DNA of 64,000 nucleotides from a virus: IMG/VR virus record IMGVR_UViG_3300021963_000034, positions 62,001 through 126,000 of that record, one strand, 5' to 3'. The position numbers and the translations under genes are program-made. The notes below the pieces were generated by a model. The model made no database searches. It had not been told where the DNA came from and worked only from the letters and a program-made list of their open reading frames with translations. Position 1 is the first letter of the stretch. Every line of letters begins with the position of its first letter. Shown piece by piece: positions 2,115 through 64,000 of the stretch.

Positions 2115-2141
2115 TTTGTAACTATAATAAATAGTTACAAA
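2115..2141 (+). promoter_or_regulatory. perfect inverted repeat with a late promoter box inside, upstream of the HNH gene
   Basis: TTTGTAACTAT (2115-2125), loop AATAA, ATAGTTACAAA (2131-2141) form an 11-bp perfect hairpin. The late box ATAAATA (2127-2133) spans the loop and 3' arm. Transcription from it would start near 2139 and lose the hairpin, whereas read-through RNA keeps it 13 bases from the ATG at 2155. The layout matches the leaders of the other three homing endonuclease genes here. Confidence 0.7.
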
Positions 2142-2154
2142 TCATATTTAAAAT

Positions 2155-2511
2155 ATGAAAACCTGTACTAAATGTGGACTATCCAAATCACTAACAGAAT
2201 TTCACTCTGCTGGTATAATAGATGGTAAAAAATATCTTCGTGGTGAATGCAAAGTTTGTCAGAAGAAAGTTGTAAAAGCAAGGACAAAATCTATTAAAGA
2301 AGATTATGTTTCTTGGAAAAAAACTTTGAAGTGTACCAGGTGTGGGTTTTCTGATTATCGTGCCCTCCAATTTCATCATATTGATGAAAAAGAGCATACT
2401 ATTGCAAATATGTTCCGTGGTGGATTTTCTCTAGAAAGTATAAAAAAAGAAGCAAAAAAGTGTGAAGTTCTTTGCGCCAACTGCCACCAAATACACCATT
2501 CGCCCCTATAG
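2155..2511 (+). CDS. HNH homing endonuclease (freestanding)
   Basis: A 118-residue protein. An N-terminal zinc finger-like unit (C4, C7, C32, C35) precedes a second C-x2-C (C60, C63). The HNH core follows: HH at 74-75, then C107-x2-C110 with N109 and H111 in VLCANCHQIHH. The family makes site-specific DNA nicks or breaks that promote spread of its own gene or a neighbouring intron. The last ten bases of the gene lie inside the tRNA-Thr gene; the stop TAG is 2509-2511. It begins 404 bases after the tRNA-Leu intron, so it could serve that ORF-less intron in trans (inference). Confidence 0.88.
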   Translation: MKTCTKCGLSKSLTEFHSAGIIDGKKYLRGECKVCQKKVVKARTKSIKEDYVSWKKTLKCTRCGFSDYRALQFHHIDEKEHTIANMFRGGFSLESIKKEAKKCEVLCANCHQIHHSPL

Positions 2512-2574
2512 CATAACGGTTACTGCATCCGCCTTGTAAGCGGAAGATTTTCGGTTCGATTCCGAATGGGGGCT
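2502..2574 (+). tRNA. trnT(UGU): tRNA-Thr (anticodon UGU)
   Basis: The acceptor GCCCCTA (2502-2508) pairs with TGGGGGC (2567-2573) with one T-G wobble; discriminator is T2574. The anticodon stem TCCGC/GCGGA encloses loop CTTGTAA, giving anticodon TGT, which reads ACA. The T arm TTCGG-TTCGATT-CCGAA is perfect. CCA is not encoded. The 5' end overlaps the HNH coding region by ten bases, so processing of this tRNA would truncate the HNH message. Confidence 0.95.
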
Positions 2575-2592
2575 CTGAGTTCTATAACTCCA

Positions 2593-2751
2593 ATGTCACT
2601 TATTTCACAACAAGACCGCCAAATGGTCATTGAAGCACTTGAATATTATGTTCAAAAACTTAAGGAAGATAACTGCACTCCTGCCTCTATCAGTGCATTC
2701 CAAACCCTCCTTAACTGGGTCGAACTGGAGCATTTCAAGCATGAAAATTAA
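2593..2751 (+). CDS. small hypothetical protein
   Basis: A 52-residue protein starting MSLISQQDRQMVIEALEYY, largely helical. The in-frame start at 2566 would lie within tRNA-Thr, so the ATG at 2593 is preferred. Its 3' end overlaps the next gene by 11 bases, suggesting coupled translation. No function is recognised. Confidence 0.65.
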   Translation: MSLISQQDRQMVIEALEYYVQKLKEDNCTPASISAFQTLLNWVELEHFKHEN

Positions 2752-2914
2752 TCTTTGGTATTGTAAAGACATGAAACAGTGGCGTTGGGTTTTAACTGAT
2801 GATAGTAGACCTATTCTTAAACAGGAATCTGGTCAGCAACCATTTCTCCGTGATGCTATGAATGATGTGGCAAATACTGTAGAATATATGTTAGAATGCA
2901 AACAAAGTGAGTAA
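2741..2914 (+). CDS. small conserved cyanophage protein
   Basis: A 57-residue protein, MKINLWYCKDMKQWRWVLTD..., ending with a helix that includes AMNDVANTVEYMLE. I recall very similar short proteins in cyanomyoviruses, with no known role. The ATG at 2741 overlaps the end of the upstream gene; the longer frame upstream is only its shadow. A terminator follows two bases after the stop. Confidence 0.75.
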   Translation: MKINLWYCKDMKQWRWVLTDDSRPILKQESGQQPFLRDAMNDVANTVEYMLECKQSE

Positions 2915-2916
2915 TT

Positions 2917-2967
2917 GGAGGCAGCAACTAGTGTCTTGGCGGATTTAGTTGCGTAAGGCCTCCTTTT
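2917..2967 (+). terminator. rho-independent terminator with an unusual 15-base loop
   Basis: GGAGGC (2917-2922) pairs with GCCTCC (2958-2963) and GCAACTA (2924-2930) with TAGTTGC (2946-2952), followed by TTTT. The loop (2931-2945) contains GTGTCTTGGCG, the exact complement of the bases just before the next start codon. Confidence 0.8.
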
Positions 2968-3004
2968 ATAGTATAATAAATAATAATAGTCAACGCCAAG
3001 ACAC
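2931..3004 (+). promoter_or_regulatory. long-range inverted repeat flanking a late promoter, ahead of the GIY-YIG gene
   Basis: GTGTCTTGGCG (2931-2941, the terminator loop) is the perfect reverse complement of CGCCAAGACAC (2994-3004), which ends one base before the ATG at 3006. Between them lies the late box ATAAATA (2976-2982), with an expected start near 2988. Read-through RNA can pair the loop with the initiation region. Late RNA lacks the left arm and stays open. Confidence 0.75.
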
Positions 3005-3005
3005 A

Positions 3006-3572
3006 ATGAACGAATACTACACTTACGCATATTTGCGTGAAGACGGAACACCTTACTACATTGGCAAAGGTAAAGGAAGAAGAGTTTATAATAGTCACAT
3101 TAGACAAAACAAAACAAATTTAAAACCTAAAGATAGTAGTAGAATTCTTCTTTTAAAGAAAAATCTTACAGAAGAGGAAGCAAGTAAACACGAAATTTAT
3201 ATGATTTATGTGTTTGGAAGAAAAGATTTAGGAACTGGTATTCTTCGTAATATGACTAATGGTGGAGATGGAATATCTGGATATTCTCATACCGAAGAAA
3301 CTAAAAAACTTCTTTCAGAAAAAACTTCTGGAAAAAATCACACTTGGTATGGGAGGGAACATACCGAAGAATCAAAAAGGAAAATGAGAGAATCTAGTAA
3401 AAATAGAGAAAGAAAACCTCATAGTGAAGAAACAAAAAAGAAAATGAGGGAGTCTGCTAAAAAATATTGGAAAGATGTAGGTAGAAATATTAATGGGGAA
3501 AATAATCCCTTTTATGGAAAATCACACAGTGAAGAAACTAAGAAAAAAATAGGAGATAATGTTAGGAAATGA
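3006..3572 (+). CDS. GIY-YIG homing endonuclease with NUMOD3-type repeats
   Basis: A 188-residue protein. The N-terminal GIY-YIG domain appears as YYTYAYL (4-10) and PYYIGKGKGRR (16-26), with the conserved arginine pair. At least two NUMOD3-like DNA-binding motifs follow (HTWYGREHTEESKRKMRES and NNPFYGKSHSEETKKKIG). The protein stops directly after the last one, so a longer C-terminal domain may be missing. The family makes double-strand breaks in cognate phage DNA and spreads by repair. The start at 3006 is chosen because the motif begins there and the leader inverted repeat ends there; the 2949 start would lie in the terminator. Confidence 0.88.
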   Translation: MNEYYTYAYLREDGTPYYIGKGKGRRVYNSHIRQNKTNLKPKDSSRILLLKKNLTEEEASKHEIYMIYVFGRKDLGTGILRNMTNGGDGISGYSHTEETKKLLSEKTSGKNHTWYGREHTEESKRKMRESSKNRERKPHSEETKKKMRESAKKYWKDVGRNINGENNPFYGKSHSEETKKKIGDNVRK

Positions 3573-3590: not shown

Positions 3591-4232
3591 ATGAAAAGTG
3601 ACTTCTATATAGAAAGAGTGACCAAAAAGGAACTTGAATCACTCCTTTTAACTTATCATTATCTTAAAGATGAGAGTAAAACATACAAGTCGGGTTTCAA
3701 CTATGGACTTTATAGAAACACTTTCACAGATGTCCTTAGAATTGGCAACTGTCTTGGTGCTTGCATTTTTACTGGTCTCCCAGTTCCAGAAATAGCAAAA
3801 GGAGCATTTGGATTAAATCGTAATGAACAACAAGGACTTTTCGAACTTTCAAGACTTTGCATCGAACCTAGTACGCAGTCACGAGAATATAACATCACTT
3901 CTTGGTTTGTGTCAAAGGCGATTAGACAACTTCGAAAAGATACTGAAGTTAAAGCAATCCTTTCTTATGCTGATTCAAATCACCATTCTGGTACAATTTA
4001 TCGCGCTTGCAACTTTAAGTATTACGGTCTCACGGATCGAAAAAAAGATTTCTATTATTCAGACGGAACTAAACACTCTCGCGGAAAAGTAAAAGGTTCT
4101 GAAGGTGAGTGGAAAGAAAGAAGTAGGAAGCACAGATACTTAATGGTATTTGATAAAAAACTTCAAAAAAGGTTGACTTGGAAAGAAGAGTCGTGGTATA
4201 ATAATCAAGACGATACTGAATCGTTACAGTGA
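3591..4232 (+). CDS. Mom-like putative DNA-modification protein (GNAT-type fold)
   Basis: A 213-residue protein with the motif set I associate with phage Mu Mom relatives: ELSRLC (85-90), NITSWFVSKA (101-110) and SYADSNHHSGTIYRACNF (125-142). In Mu, Mom modifies adenine and protects phage DNA from restriction. If the likeness holds, this protein would modify cyanophage DNA against host nucleases. The C-terminus is basic (KERSRKHRYL), fitting nucleic-acid contact. It begins 18 bases after the GIY-YIG stop and ends just before a strong terminator. Assignment is by motif memory only. Confidence 0.6.
   Translation: MKSDFYIERVTKKELESLLLTYHYLKDESKTYKSGFNYGLYRNTFTDVLRIGNCLGACIFTGLPVPEIAKGAFGLNRNEQQGLFELSRLCIEPSTQSREYNITSWFVSKAIRQLRKDTEVKAILSYADSNHHSGTIYRACNFKYYGLTDRKKDFYYSDGTKHSRGKVKGSEGEWKERSRKHRYLMVFDKKLQKRLTWKEESWYNNQDDTESLQ
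4173..4202 (+). promoter_or_regulatory. possible sigma70 promoter inside the 3' end of the Mom-like gene
   Basis: TTGACT (4173-4178), an 18-base spacer ending in an extended -10 TGG, and TATAAT (4197-4202). It points at the terminator only about 50 bases away, so its product would be an RNA of about 65 nt or an RNA that reads through into the fibre gene. It may be a chance match. Confidence 0.4.
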
Positions 4233-23001: not shown

Positions 23002-23681
23002 GATTTCATACTTTTTATACCAAAAATCTTTCAGAACAACTGATAGAAGACCATAAGAAAGTCTGTAATCATATTGGCATTGATGTGACTTATCATATTC
23101 AAGATGCAATAGATGATTATGATACTCTTTATACCGCTCACGGAAAGTTTATGACTTCTGTAATGGAGCAGGAAGAGGTTGCTTGTTTTCTTGATATTGA
23201 TTGTCTTCCGCATAATAAAGAACTTCTGGAAAGAGCATACAACTGGGCAATAGAAAATAAATCTTTTGTCGGAAATGCTCAAAACATTTCTCATACGCAA
23301 ATGAGAAATCATATCTATGCTGCTGCTTCTTGTTTAATTGTAACGAAAGATGCCTGGAATACTTTGGGTAATCCAGACTTTTCCTGGTTTATGCAGAATG
23401 AAGTTCAAATAGATACTGCACAACTTCTCACATTAAGAGCAGACCAAATTGGAATGCCCTATCAATTAATGTATCCTGTTGGTTATGATGGTCCAGAAGA
23501 ATATAAACTTTCTGGATATGGAATATATGGAACAGGAACTTTATACCCAGCAACTTGGCATTATTTTAGAATCAGTAAGTTCAAGGATCAAATACCAGAC
23601 CTTTGGACAACTCGTGTAAATAATATATTAGAAGGTCAAAAGATTATTCCAAATTATTCATCGTGTTTTTATGAACTATAA
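22998..23681 (+). CDS. GT-A type glycosyltransferase-like protein
   Basis: 227 residues with a metal-binding D-x-D motif in VACFLDIDCLP (D66, D68) after a Rossmann-like first half. The C-terminal half has aromatic patches (YPATWHYFRIS). These are features of nucleotide-sugar glycosyltransferases with a GT-A fold. It overlaps the upstream oxygenase by four bases (ATGA) and the next gene by 11. Donor and acceptor are unknown. Confidence 0.62.
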   Translation: MRFHTFYTKNLSEQLIEDHKKVCNHIGIDVTYHIQDAIDDYDTLYTAHGKFMTSVMEQEEVACFLDIDCLPHNKELLERAYNWAIENKSFVGNAQNISHTQMRNHIYAAASCLIVTKDAWNTLGNPDFSWFMQNEVQIDTAQLLTLRADQIGMPYQLMYPVGYDGPEEYKLSGYGIYGTGTLYPATWHYFRISKFKDQIPDLWTTRVNNILEGQKIIPNYSSCFYEL

Positions 23682-61124: not shown

Positions 61125-61132
61125 TATAAATA
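61125..61132 (+). promoter_or_regulatory. late promoter box TATAAATA (upstream of the inverted repeat)
   Basis: Directly abuts the stop codon of the 278-residue gene, 14 bases before the left arm of the inverted repeat at 61146. RNA from here would contain both arms, unlike RNA from the inner box at 61197. Confidence 0.7.
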
Positions 61133-61145
61133 CAAATGTCTATAG

Positions 61146-61216
61146 AACCCGCAATCTCTACAGATAAGATTAGGTGCTTTAGGGCACCTTTTCTATTATA
61201 AATAGAAGTGCGGGTT
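61146..61216 (+). promoter_or_regulatory. inverted repeat, terminator and inner late promoter ahead of an HNH endonuclease gene
   Basis: AACCCGCA (61146-61153) and TGCGGGTT (61209-61216) are exact complements. Between them lie a terminator, AGGTGC (61172-61177)/GCACCT (61184-61189) followed by TTTT, and the late box TATAAATA (61197-61204). Late RNA from the inner box would start about at the right arm and lack the left one. Confidence 0.78.
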
Positions 61217-61229
61217 TAATAGAATAGAA

Positions 61230-61934
61230 ATGAACTATCTAAAGGTTTATTGTAATCTTATCAGGAAAGCAGAGAACAGAACTCCTCCTGAAGGTTATAC
61301 AGAAAATCACCATACATTTCCAAAAAGTATTTTTGGAAAGAATAATAGAATTGTCGTGCTTACTGGAAGAGAACATTACATAGCACACGCATTACTTGAA
61401 AAAGCATTTATAAAGAGATATGGATTGAATAATATAAAAACGCAAAAAATGATAAAAGCATTTTGGTGTATGAATAATCAAAAGACAAAAAATACATATT
61501 TGAATTCTCATTTATATGAAAGTTCAAGAATAAGATTTATTGAAAATATAAAAGGAGAAAATCACTACTGGTATGGAAAAAAACATTCCCAAAAAACAAG
61601 AGAAAGAATGAAAGAAGCACAAAAAGGTGAAAATCATCCAATGTATGGTAAAACTCATACTGAAGAGACAAGAGAAAAAATGAGTAAATCTCATTTAGGA
61701 AAACCATCATCAAAGGGAATGTTGGGTAAAAAACAAACTGAAGAAGCAAAACAAAAAATAAGAGAAAGTAAAGAAGTCAAATCTTTTTCAGTAATAAGTC
61801 CTACTGGTGAAATAATTCATTCTAAAAATACTAAACAATTTTGTAGAGATAATAATTTAGATAAAGGGCACTTTTCTCAAGTTTTGAACGGAAAACGACC
61901 AATTCATAAAGGATTTCGTCTCTATACTGGATAA
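61230..61934 (+). CDS. HNH homing endonuclease with NUMOD3-type repeats
   Basis: 234 residues. The N-terminal domain YTENHHTFPKSIFGKNNR (23-40) with H49 and H53 in REHYIAHALL is an HNH variant widespread in cyanophages. Three NUMOD3-like DNA-binding units follow (ENHYWYGKKHSQKTRERMKE, ENHPMYGKTHTEETREKMS, and SKGMLGKKQTEEAKQKIRES), with a C-terminal helix-turn-helix-like end (TKQFCRDNNLDKGHFSQVLN). It probably recognises a long site and spreads by homing. It interrupts the early gene run, and its leader has the hairpin/late-promoter layout. Confidence 0.85.
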   Translation: MNYLKVYCNLIRKAENRTPPEGYTENHHTFPKSIFGKNNRIVVLTGREHYIAHALLEKAFIKRYGLNNIKTQKMIKAFWCMNNQKTKNTYLNSHLYESSRIRFIENIKGENHYWYGKKHSQKTRERMKEAQKGENHPMYGKTHTEETREKMSKSHLGKPSSKGMLGKKQTEEAKQKIRESKEVKSFSVISPTGEIIHSKNTKQFCRDNNLDKGHFSQVLNGKRPIHKGFRLYTG

Positions 61935-63636: not shown

Positions 63637-63857
63637 GGTTTGAAAATCCAACAAAATGGGAAATCTTCCTTGATGGTTTCCATAACTTCTGGAACTGCCT
63701 GGATTGTTATAATGATGGTGATACTTGGGGATACGATGAGTTCTGGGAAGGATTAAATCTTGGGTTTTATATGATGGAAATTTATGACTATGATGACCCA
63801 TTTAATCCATCTGTTTTGAGTAAGCAAAGGAAAAGGTTGTATGGAATTTATGAATAA
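63633..63857 (+). CDS. small aromatic-acidic protein
   Basis: 74 residues, rich in W, F, Y, D and N (WEIFLDGFHNFWNCLDCYND; WGYDEFWEGLNLGFYMM), ending basic (KQRKRLYGIYE). Resembles in flavour the aromatic small proteins at 57381 and 54940. No family is recognised. Its stop overlaps a late promoter box. Confidence 0.65.
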   Translation: MRFENPTKWEIFLDGFHNFWNCLDCYNDGDTWGYDEFWEGLNLGFYMMEIYDYDDPFNPSVLSKQRKRLYGIYE

Positions 63858-63860
63858 ATA
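63854..63860 (+). promoter_or_regulatory. late promoter box ATAAATA (upstream of the inverted repeat)
   Basis: Overlaps the stop codon at 63855-63857, eight bases before the left arm of the next inverted repeat. It has the same outer-box position as the box at 61125. Confidence 0.6.
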
Positions 63861-63867
63861 GTCGTAC

Positions 63868-63949
63868 CTAATTTGGTGGTTCTTTTTAGGTTGGGATAAA
63901 GCACCTTCGGGTGCTTTTCCTGTATAAATACTAATAACCACCAAATTAG
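63868..63949 (+). promoter_or_regulatory. 14-bp inverted repeat, terminator and inner late promoter ahead of a GIY-YIG gene
   Basis: CTAATTTGGTGGTT (63868-63881) and AACCACCAAATTAG (63936-63949) are exact complements, ending nine bases before the ATG at 63959. Between them are a terminator, AAAGCACC (63898-63905)/GGTGCTTT (63910-63917) with a TTCG loop, and the late box TATAAATA (63923-63930), whose start site would fall at the first base of the right arm. Confidence 0.82.
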
Positions 63950-63958
63950 AGTAGATCT

Positions 63959-64000
63959 ATGAAAGACCCTAACAGGTTTTATACTTACGCATACCTGCGA
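63959..64000 (+). CDS. GIY-YIG homing endonuclease, N-terminal fragment (runs off window)
   Basis: Only 14 residues are visible: MKDPNRFYTYAYLR. The phrase YTYAYLR is the same as in the GIY-YIG protein at 3006 (YYTYAYLRED), and the leader has the same inverted-repeat/terminator/late-promoter architecture, so this is very likely a second gene of that family. Confidence 0.75.
   Translation, partial: MKDPNRFYTYAYLR

Follow-up and report, generated by a model that had tools for sequence, protein, structure and literature searches.

The window analysed here is a stretch of 64,000 nucleotides (nt) corresponding to positions 62001-126000 of the 153,555-base-pair (bp) virus record IMGVR_UViG_3300021963_000034, whose source is a T4-like cyanophage with a tail-fibre and tRNA region resembling that of Synechococcus phages. 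It contains four homing endonuclease genes, termed H1 to H4, with inverted repeats in their leaders (sites 1 to 4), and sites 3 and 4 represent a recurrent cyanophage cassette that appears to join an antisense RNA gene to an endonuclease gene. The initial annotation had placed the sequence ATAAATA inside a leader inverted repeat at all four genes, which was confirmed with perfect arms of 11, 11, 8 and 14 bp. In T4, five bases separate TATAAATA from the transcription start (+1), and this spacing was used for all predicted late starts. The late promoter of cyanophages is NATAAATA (PMC2984593). Three layouts were distinguished: class A, consisting of upstream box, left arm, terminator, main box, right arm and ATG (sites 3 and 4); class B, in which the terminator loop holds the left arm and an upstream late box is absent (site 2); and class C, a plain T4-type hairpin around the promoter (site 1). 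The features are as follows.

2115-2125, plus strand: left arm of site 1, perfect 11-bp inverted repeat (class C, T4-type hairpin)
2127-2133, plus strand: late box ATAAATA of site 1, overlapping the right arm
2131-2141, plus strand: right arm of site 1, containing the predicted late start 2139
2155-2511, plus strand: H1, HNH endonuclease gene, 118 amino acids (PHROG HNH endonuclease, 112 bits)
2917-2963, plus strand: terminator hairpin of site 2, its apical part containing the left arm, then TTTT (class B)
2931-2941, plus strand: left arm of site 2, GTGTCTTGGCG, perfect 11-bp inverted repeat
2976-2982, plus strand: late box ATAAATA of site 2, predicted +1 at 2988, ahead of the right arm
2994-3004, plus strand: right arm of site 2, CGCCAAGACAC, 1 nt ahead of the ATG at 3006
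3006-3572, plus strand: H2, NUMOD3 endonuclease gene, 188 amino acids (Pfam NUMOD3, 82.7 bits; GIY-YIG-like by eye)
61126-61132, plus strand: upstream late box of site 3, predicted +1 at 61138 (T at -1, G at +1)
61138-61196, plus strand: predicted antisense RNA of site 3, about 59 nt (covariance model and folding)
61146-61153, plus strand: left arm of site 3, AACCCGCA, perfect 8-bp inverted repeat
61172-61189, plus strand: intrinsic terminator stem-loop of site 3 (folding)
61198-61204, plus strand: main late box of site 3, predicted +1 at 61210
61209-61216, plus strand: right arm of site 3, TGCGGGTT, perfect 8-bp inverted repeat
61230-61934, plus strand: H3, NUMOD3 endonuclease gene, 234 amino acids (Pfam NUMOD3, 79.8 bits)
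63854-63860, plus strand: upstream late box of site 4, predicted +1 at 63866
63866-63922, plus strand: predicted antisense RNA of site 4, about 57 nt (covariance model and folding)
63868-63881, plus strand: left arm of site 4, CTAATTTGGTGGTT, perfect 14-bp inverted repeat
63898-63917, plus strand: intrinsic terminator stem-loop of site 4 (folding)
63924-63930, plus strand: main late box of site 4, predicted +1 at 63936
63936-63949, plus strand: right arm of site 4, AACCACCAAATTAG, perfect 14-bp inverted repeat
63959-64000, plus strand: start of H4, GIY-YIG-like by eye, continuing beyond the window (239 amino acids, L015:460-1179)

Homing-endonuclease motifs were found above the cut-off in H2 and H3 (NUMOD3) and through PHROG in H1, and H4 is 58% identical to H2. 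H2 also matched the PHROG homing endonuclease family (69.5 bits), while the matches of H1 to Pfam HNH (17.9 bits, cut-off 21.4) and of H3 to TIGR01453 (48.5 bits, cut-off 56.05) stayed under their cut-offs, and the Pfam GIY-YIG model found no match anywhere in the record. From the end of the right arm to the AUG there are 13, 1, 13 and 9 nt at sites 1 to 4, and no clear Shine-Dalgarno sequence was seen by eye in the four leaders. At two further NUMOD3 endonuclease genes of the record (34742, plus strand; 48973, minus strand) the repeats reach only 7 bp.

For T4-type homing endonucleases the late promoter is so placed that late RNA lacks the 5′ arm of a hairpin over the ribosome-binding site and early read-through RNA can fold, as described for I-TevI, I-TevII, I-TevIII, T4 segB and Aeh1 mobE (PMC2988022). 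The initial annotation read all four leaders in this way, with late transcription starting after or within the right arm. Site 1 matches this description, as its predicted start at 2139 lies within the right arm and the read-through RNA folds with -12.1 kcal/mol compared with -0.7 kcal/mol for the late RNA; the arms hardly vary among the closest relatives, which leaves covariation with little to say at this site. At sites 2 to 4 the same reading does not hold as stated, since the late start lies at or before the right arm and the late RNA therefore keeps this arm (minus one base at site 3). What stands is that the predicted late start falls 3′ of the left arm at all four sites and that the late leaders hardly fold alone (0.0 to -2.1 kcal/mol). 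Read-through RNA is predicted to fold into the arm helix at sites 1, 3 and 4, but at site 2 the terminator hairpin is favoured, and the arms are unpaired in the minimum free energy (MFE) structure. Sites 2 to 4 depart from T4-type hairpins through a terminator located at or between the arms and through a late RNA that retains the right arm; sites 3 and 4 additionally feature another late box and a hairpin that exposes the left arm. With the terminator lying between the arms (sites 3 and 4) or around the left arm (site 2), most upstream RNA should end before the right arm is reached, and a mechanism in cis would have no use for the second late box that sites 3 and 4 carry immediately before the left arm. 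Judged from the sequence, the terminator, the arm-keeping late RNA and the second box point to a separate small RNA. Among the leaders of other H1 relatives (L262-L264, L266, L268-L270, L280, L281), the late RNA would start with a TTGGGAA..TTCCCAA hairpin abutting the ATG.

Across the whole record, arms of at least 11 bp flank 4 of 41 ATAAATA sites compared with 12 of 1500 random positions, the four being three of the four leaders and one site inside a coding sequence. The 8-bp repeat at 61146 is not unusual alone, as 209 of 1500 random positions reach 8 bp, and is established by the relatives. These relatives were collected in four scans of viral contigs, which gave at least 291 loci with 323 N-terminal endonuclease matches among those listed; the leader, locus and ATAAATA-site counts from relatives rest on the matches listed in these scans. 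ATAAATA was found within 75 nt at 270 of the 323 matches, and a late box within 80 nt in 140 of 174 distinct leaders of related endonuclease genes; 78 of these 140 have arms of at least 10 bp, against 1.9 expected when halves were swapped between leaders. When all ATAAATA sites of these loci and of the window's record were considered, whatever gene lay behind them, arms of at least 9 bp in this geometry were present at 110 of 676 distinct sites and at 6 in the swap null. An open reading frame (ORF) follows at 108 of these 110 sites, 98 of the ORFs being homologous to H1-H4 and 8 of the remaining 10 looking like homing endonucleases by eye. In the fetched loci, 383 promoter sites are followed by an ORF; arms of at least 8 bp were present at 118 of 177 endonuclease promoters compared with 4 of 206 others, a contrast that is partly circular because the query set held families first seen behind these leaders. 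Chance repeats were rejected as an explanation, the swap nulls lying far below the observed arm counts. A known Rfam family was rejected likewise, as the window gave nothing over the gathering score besides a tRNA and a group I intron, and Rfam found nothing in 12 relative loci.

The spread of class A was assessed with a covariance model, R1, derived from 49 upstream halves. Both of those in the window were among them, and none came from S-SRM01, an annotated isolate from a Singapore reservoir, or from B23. E-value limits were 1 for the window's record and S-SRM01, 0.01 for IMG/VR records and 0.1, with stricter filters, for nine other named cyanophages. In the window and the rest of its record, R1 found exactly two units, namely sites 3 (61126-61193) and 4 (63854-63920), both of which were part of the model. 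Six units were found in S-SRM01, 53 in 23 further IMG/VR records, 60 in 40 more and three in B23, giving 124 units in 75 records; the IMG/VR records were taken from those already yielding endonuclease relatives, some are near-duplicates and some of their units are in the model. The class B terminator signature was matched 32 times across the fetched loci and the record of the window. Of the 124 class A units, 120 are followed by an endonuclease gene or a remnant of one and three by an ORF without an assigned family, and one unit is an orphan. Among the 109 intact ORFs behind units, 80 are homologous to H1-H4 at 1e-5 and another 24 fall into three GIY-YIG-like families by motif; of the remaining five, three have a nuclease family match (L315, L322, L362) and two do not (L342, L431). 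At L327, L415 and L438, decayed endonuclease genes lie behind intact cassettes, L401, with the box CTAAATA, has an ORF that reads like H3 by eye, and the GTG-start ORF behind the unit of L427 was assigned no identity. Where identified, the products are NUMOD3, GIY-YIG-like or HNH nucleases. One family, with the motif YKITF..V.YYYYG, was given no name by Pfam, PHROGs or NCBIfam, and a PDB sequence search returned nothing relevant; its AlphaFold model is poor (mean predicted local distance difference test score 44.8), and its top Foldseek matches, I-TevI and UvrC GIY-YIG domains among them, lack a significant E-value.

In S-SRM01, a phage of Synechococcus sp. KCZYC6 with six class A units and one of class B, all 97 ATAAATA sites were scanned; arms of at least 8 bp precede gp030, gp066, gp075, gp091, gp114, gp152, gp207 (found via two overlapping boxes) and gp297, with one further site inside a coding gene. 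In the annotation, gp091 and gp152 are hypothetical proteins and gp114 is initiation factor 2. Behind the units of classes A and B, the ORFs match H2, H3, H4 or the L315, L326 and L329 families; gp066 is the L315 protein itself, with endonuclease VII and HNH matches. These data support the earlier proposal of a shared regulatory cassette accompanying selfish endonuclease genes. In a Klebsiella phage, a relative of H3 overlaps the gene before it, which leaves no room for such a leader. Outside the window, a C39-type peptidase gene recognised by eye carries a 9-bp repeat around a terminator and late box (record positions 23602-23672), which makes a strictly endonuclease-only claim too strong. 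At genes annotated as endonuclease VII in S-SRM01 (NC_070963, 126123-126200 and 142230-142306), T4-type hairpins enclose the late box; the start codon lies within the 20-bp stem of one of them, and the repeat of the other was recognised by eye.

Analysis of the region upstream of the left arm revealed TAAATA within 35 nt in 87 of 92 class A units compared with 1 of 92 and 2 of 92 in the two preceding blocks. The upstream TAAATA starts most often at -16 and is preceded by A in 56 and by C in 32 of 88 cases; bases further upstream of the box are mixed, and the conserved unit therefore seems to begin at the upstream box. At the predicted start of this box, a purine occupies +1 in 85 of 88 cases and T occupies -1 in 74 of 88, and the main box behaves alike (purine at +1 in 92 of 93, T at -1 in 86 of 93); native late boxes have a purine at +1 in 184 of 219 cases. 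Both boxes of the cassette thus combine a promoter-like sequence with a start-site-like base. For 32 distinct insertion sites a presumed empty homologue is available, and TAAATA is present in 30 of the occupied and 12 of the empty sites. The upstream box often arrives with the cassette, and its interpretation as a mere native relic was rejected, given the 20 of 32 empty sites without it besides the 12 with one. Where a stop codon of the preceding gene is nearby, the upstream box often coincides with it (29 of 59), a position that native boxes commonly take as well (54 of 255). Used by itself, a short consensus of the upstream promoter was too weak, with 20 matches against 16.3 expected.

Since the 79 class A units of the alignment were chosen for arms of at least 9 bp, arm pairing is built into it, and the fair tests are the swap nulls and the model matches outside the aligned set. 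Among the latter, 73 of 83 have arms of at least 8 bp (swap null 21 of 676), and the same holds for 53 of the 60 whose sequence is, in addition, separated from each aligned unit by more than 6 of 60 bases. A hairpin around the left arm with at least five Watson-Crick pairs is found in 63 of 88 units, against 27 in the swap null. Within the 79 aligned units, the covariation score of the whole structure is 0.396 compared with 0.154 in shuffled and 0.070-0.129 in slid alignments; pairing reaches 87% in the arm helix, where 9 of 10 pairs show both-side changes, and 75% in the small hairpin around the left arm, whose stem, which was not selected for, shows such changes at 5 of 6 pairs. Terminator cells are 80.6% paired in this alignment (A1, 79 units), and in a second alignment (A2) RNAalifold predicted seven terminator pairs, all with both-side changes. 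Two of five covariation measures barely exceed or equal the shuffles. Across all sequences examined there are 129 distinct arm pairs, whose isolated interior mismatches, counted in distinct contexts, comprise 21 G-U, 3 A-C and 17 others (binomial p 1.4e-4 for G-U over A-C, the contexts being not fully independent). The first interior mismatch count was small, with 6 G-U, 0 A-C and 30 others, and the same test on the arm flanks was confounded by their conservation. As the arms vary yet stay complementary and G-U is favoured over A-C, we concluded that they pair as plus-strand RNA. A DNA palindrome was rejected, G-U mismatches outnumbering A-C.

A related proposal, in which the arms act at the DNA level as an operator bound by the endonuclease or as an insertion mark, finds a precedent in I-TevI, which binds an operator over its own late promoter, with similar sites overlapping the I-TevII and I-TevIII promoters (PMC2988022), and the units are indeed present or absent at homologous sites. 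However, the arm sequences change freely while complementarity is kept, the identical arms CTAATTTGGTGGTT precede H2-, H3- and H4-type genes and hence different endonuclease families, and the preference for G-U is not predicted by DNA pairing, which makes this proposal highly improbable.

In terms of energetics, the predicted small RNA and the late leader have median lengths of 58 and 24 nt, and the late leader has a median MFE of 0.0 kcal/mol in the 79 class A units, in line with the earlier claim of a late RNA that does not fold. Cognate pairs of the two RNAs form duplexes with a median of -23.1 kcal/mol compared with -10.6 kcal/mol for non-cognate pairs. The loop of the orphan unit, L356, pairs with the leader of S-SRM01 gp297 at -23.2 kcal/mol; for an endonuclease leader in the same record as L356 the value is -19.4 kcal/mol. 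As a promoter, an antisense loop and a terminator precede the promoter of the matching transcript, an antisense gene in tandem with its target is the simplest account. With slightly better than even confidence, we therefore favour a reading of the sequence in which the upstream half would be an antisense RNA gene of about 58 nt in tandem with the endonuclease gene, blocking translation in trans and, on read-through RNA, in cis. The late promoter [A/C]TAAATA would yield an RNA of about 58 nt that begins with a small hairpin presenting the left arm in its loop and ends with the intrinsic terminator, while the second late promoter would give the endonuclease mRNA, whose first 10-14 nt form the right arm, followed by about 10 nt and the AUG. 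Pairing of the loop with the right arm would block ribosome entry and keep the endonuclease level low and self-limited late in infection, and the same pairing would silence, in cis, RNA reading through the terminator. In class B, the arm within the terminator loop would make use of upstream transcripts, with the RNA ending at its terminator; class C would be the plain T4-type hairpin. Layout, covariation, the pairing bias of the RNA strand and the near-exclusive endonuclease link are computed features of the cassette; production of the small RNA, its action in trans and a repressive effect are what we infer from them.

Alternatively, the arms may act in cis only, forming a hairpin in read-through RNA that hides the start region and that late RNA escapes, with the terminator as a second insulation and no separate RNA involved. 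This mode of action has precedents in the T4-type genes named above (PMC2988022), site 1 is of this type, and so are the hairpins of the endonuclease VII-type genes in S-SRM01. Moreover, the long RNA pairs its arms in the MFE structure in 79 of 79 class A units, which were chosen for such arms, and in 8 of 10 distinct class B variants. However, the terminator between the arms should remove most of the read-through RNA, and neither the upstream box with its start-site-like base nor the covarying hairpin around the left arm is needed for this mode of action. The absence of the arms from the MFE structure of site 2 likewise counts against an action in cis only, as does the orphan L356, which consists of promoter, hairpin and terminator followed by an unrelated gene, without main box, right arm or endonuclease. 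A T4-type cis hairpin is a possible sole or additional function; the terminator, upstream box, loop hairpin and orphan weigh against it as the sole one, and we consider the cis-only explanation less likely but a serious alternative.

Pairing of the small RNA with the leader might also activate or stabilise the endonuclease mRNA through protection of its 5′ end, as in class A the duplex would cover the start of the mRNA as predicted and stop about 10 nt short of the AUG. In class B, however, the arm ends at most 2 nt from the AUG in 8 of 10 variants, which should block initiation, and antisense RNAs covering a start region usually repress. We consider activation improbable.

Several observations weigh against the tandem antisense gene. 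Both promoters are late, so that timing alone does not explain the RNA, and site 2 is without an upstream late box. Of the 88 upstream boxes, 32 read CTAAATA, one base off NATAAATA, and the T at -1 is not shared by native late boxes (81 of 219). In some of the 12 empty sites with TAAATA, this sequence is native at the corresponding position, and the 12 include at least one, in the listed pair L238/L032, that is not a true empty site. Pairs with both-side changes numbered 19 compared with 16.3 in shuffled alignments (reached by 42 of 500), and further pair types 51 compared with 50.2 (228 of 500); for the upstream half, RNAalifold predicted the terminator only and no arm-bearing hairpin, which indicates that this hairpin is weak. 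Avoidance of cross-pairing within genomes was not found (10 strong pairs against 7.0 expected), and 59 of 177 endonuclease promoters are without 8-bp arms. R1 found no match in nine other named cyanophage records, including S-PM2, Syn9 and P-SSM2, and the choice of records by their endonuclease relatives raises the apparent link between cassette and endonuclease. The orphan, only one of 124 units, may be a deletion remnant.

A bolder view, which we regard as rather unlikely, is that of a modular antisense silencer travelling with selfish nucleases of several families, whose loop would diversify like plasmid incompatibility determinants, which would limit homing by its own endonuclease, and which solo, as in L356, would silence matching endonucleases of co-infecting phages and thereby act as RNA-based immunity between phages.

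Two neighbouring features of the window were also recorded. The gene directly after H2 (3591-4232) matches Pfam Mom (83 bits), and at 1521-1800 lies a tRNA-Leu(UAA) gene that by eye is split by a group I intron (1544-1733; Rfam Intron_gpI, 62.9 bits). ARAGORN predicted an uninterrupted tRNA-Leu(taa) in the related contigs L257, L258, L017, L038 and L039, and S-SM2 has an annotated tRNA-Leu of 84 nt.

T4 homing endonucleases are textbook selfish genes tamed by promoter and hairpin. In type I toxin-antitoxin systems, CopA/CopT and RNA I/RNA II, a small structured RNA with an antisense loop is encoded beside the gene whose leader it matches, and the cassette resembles these antitoxin and plasmid copy-control RNAs in this respect. 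In contrast to such loci, however, RNA and target would lie in tandem on the same strand, and the protein is an endonuclease rather than the small hydrophobic membrane toxin of type I systems. A cyanophage RNA tied to a homing endonuclease gene is CfrI of S-PM2 (PMC2984593, PMC12197685), which measures about 225 nt and is antisense to the endonuclease gene and psbA, whereas left arm, terminator and boxes of the cassette lie on the endonuclease strand; S-PM2 itself has no R1 match. According to a 2010 review, no small trans-acting T4 RNA had been functionally characterised (PMC3014915). The cassette is not described in the available portions of PMC2988022, PMC3014915, PMC12197685, PMC2984593, PMC5780444, PMC3037559, PMC8557907 and PMC13096335, and no earlier report of it was found in the accessible parts of the open-access literature. 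The S-SRM01 paper mentions endonuclease genes, and its main text is without the terms "promoter" and "small RNA" (PMC8557907).

The analysis corrects several annotations, as the annotated starts of S-SRM01 gp075 and gp297 fall inside the predicted RNA gene, and S-SRM01 gp114 and B23 gp45, both named 'translation initiation factor 2', are endonuclease relatives. If the tandem antisense gene proves true, the cassette would provide a natural set of more than 100 matched RNA pairs (129 distinct), would suggest how phages tolerate many endonuclease genes, and would make RNA-mediated conflict between phages testable.

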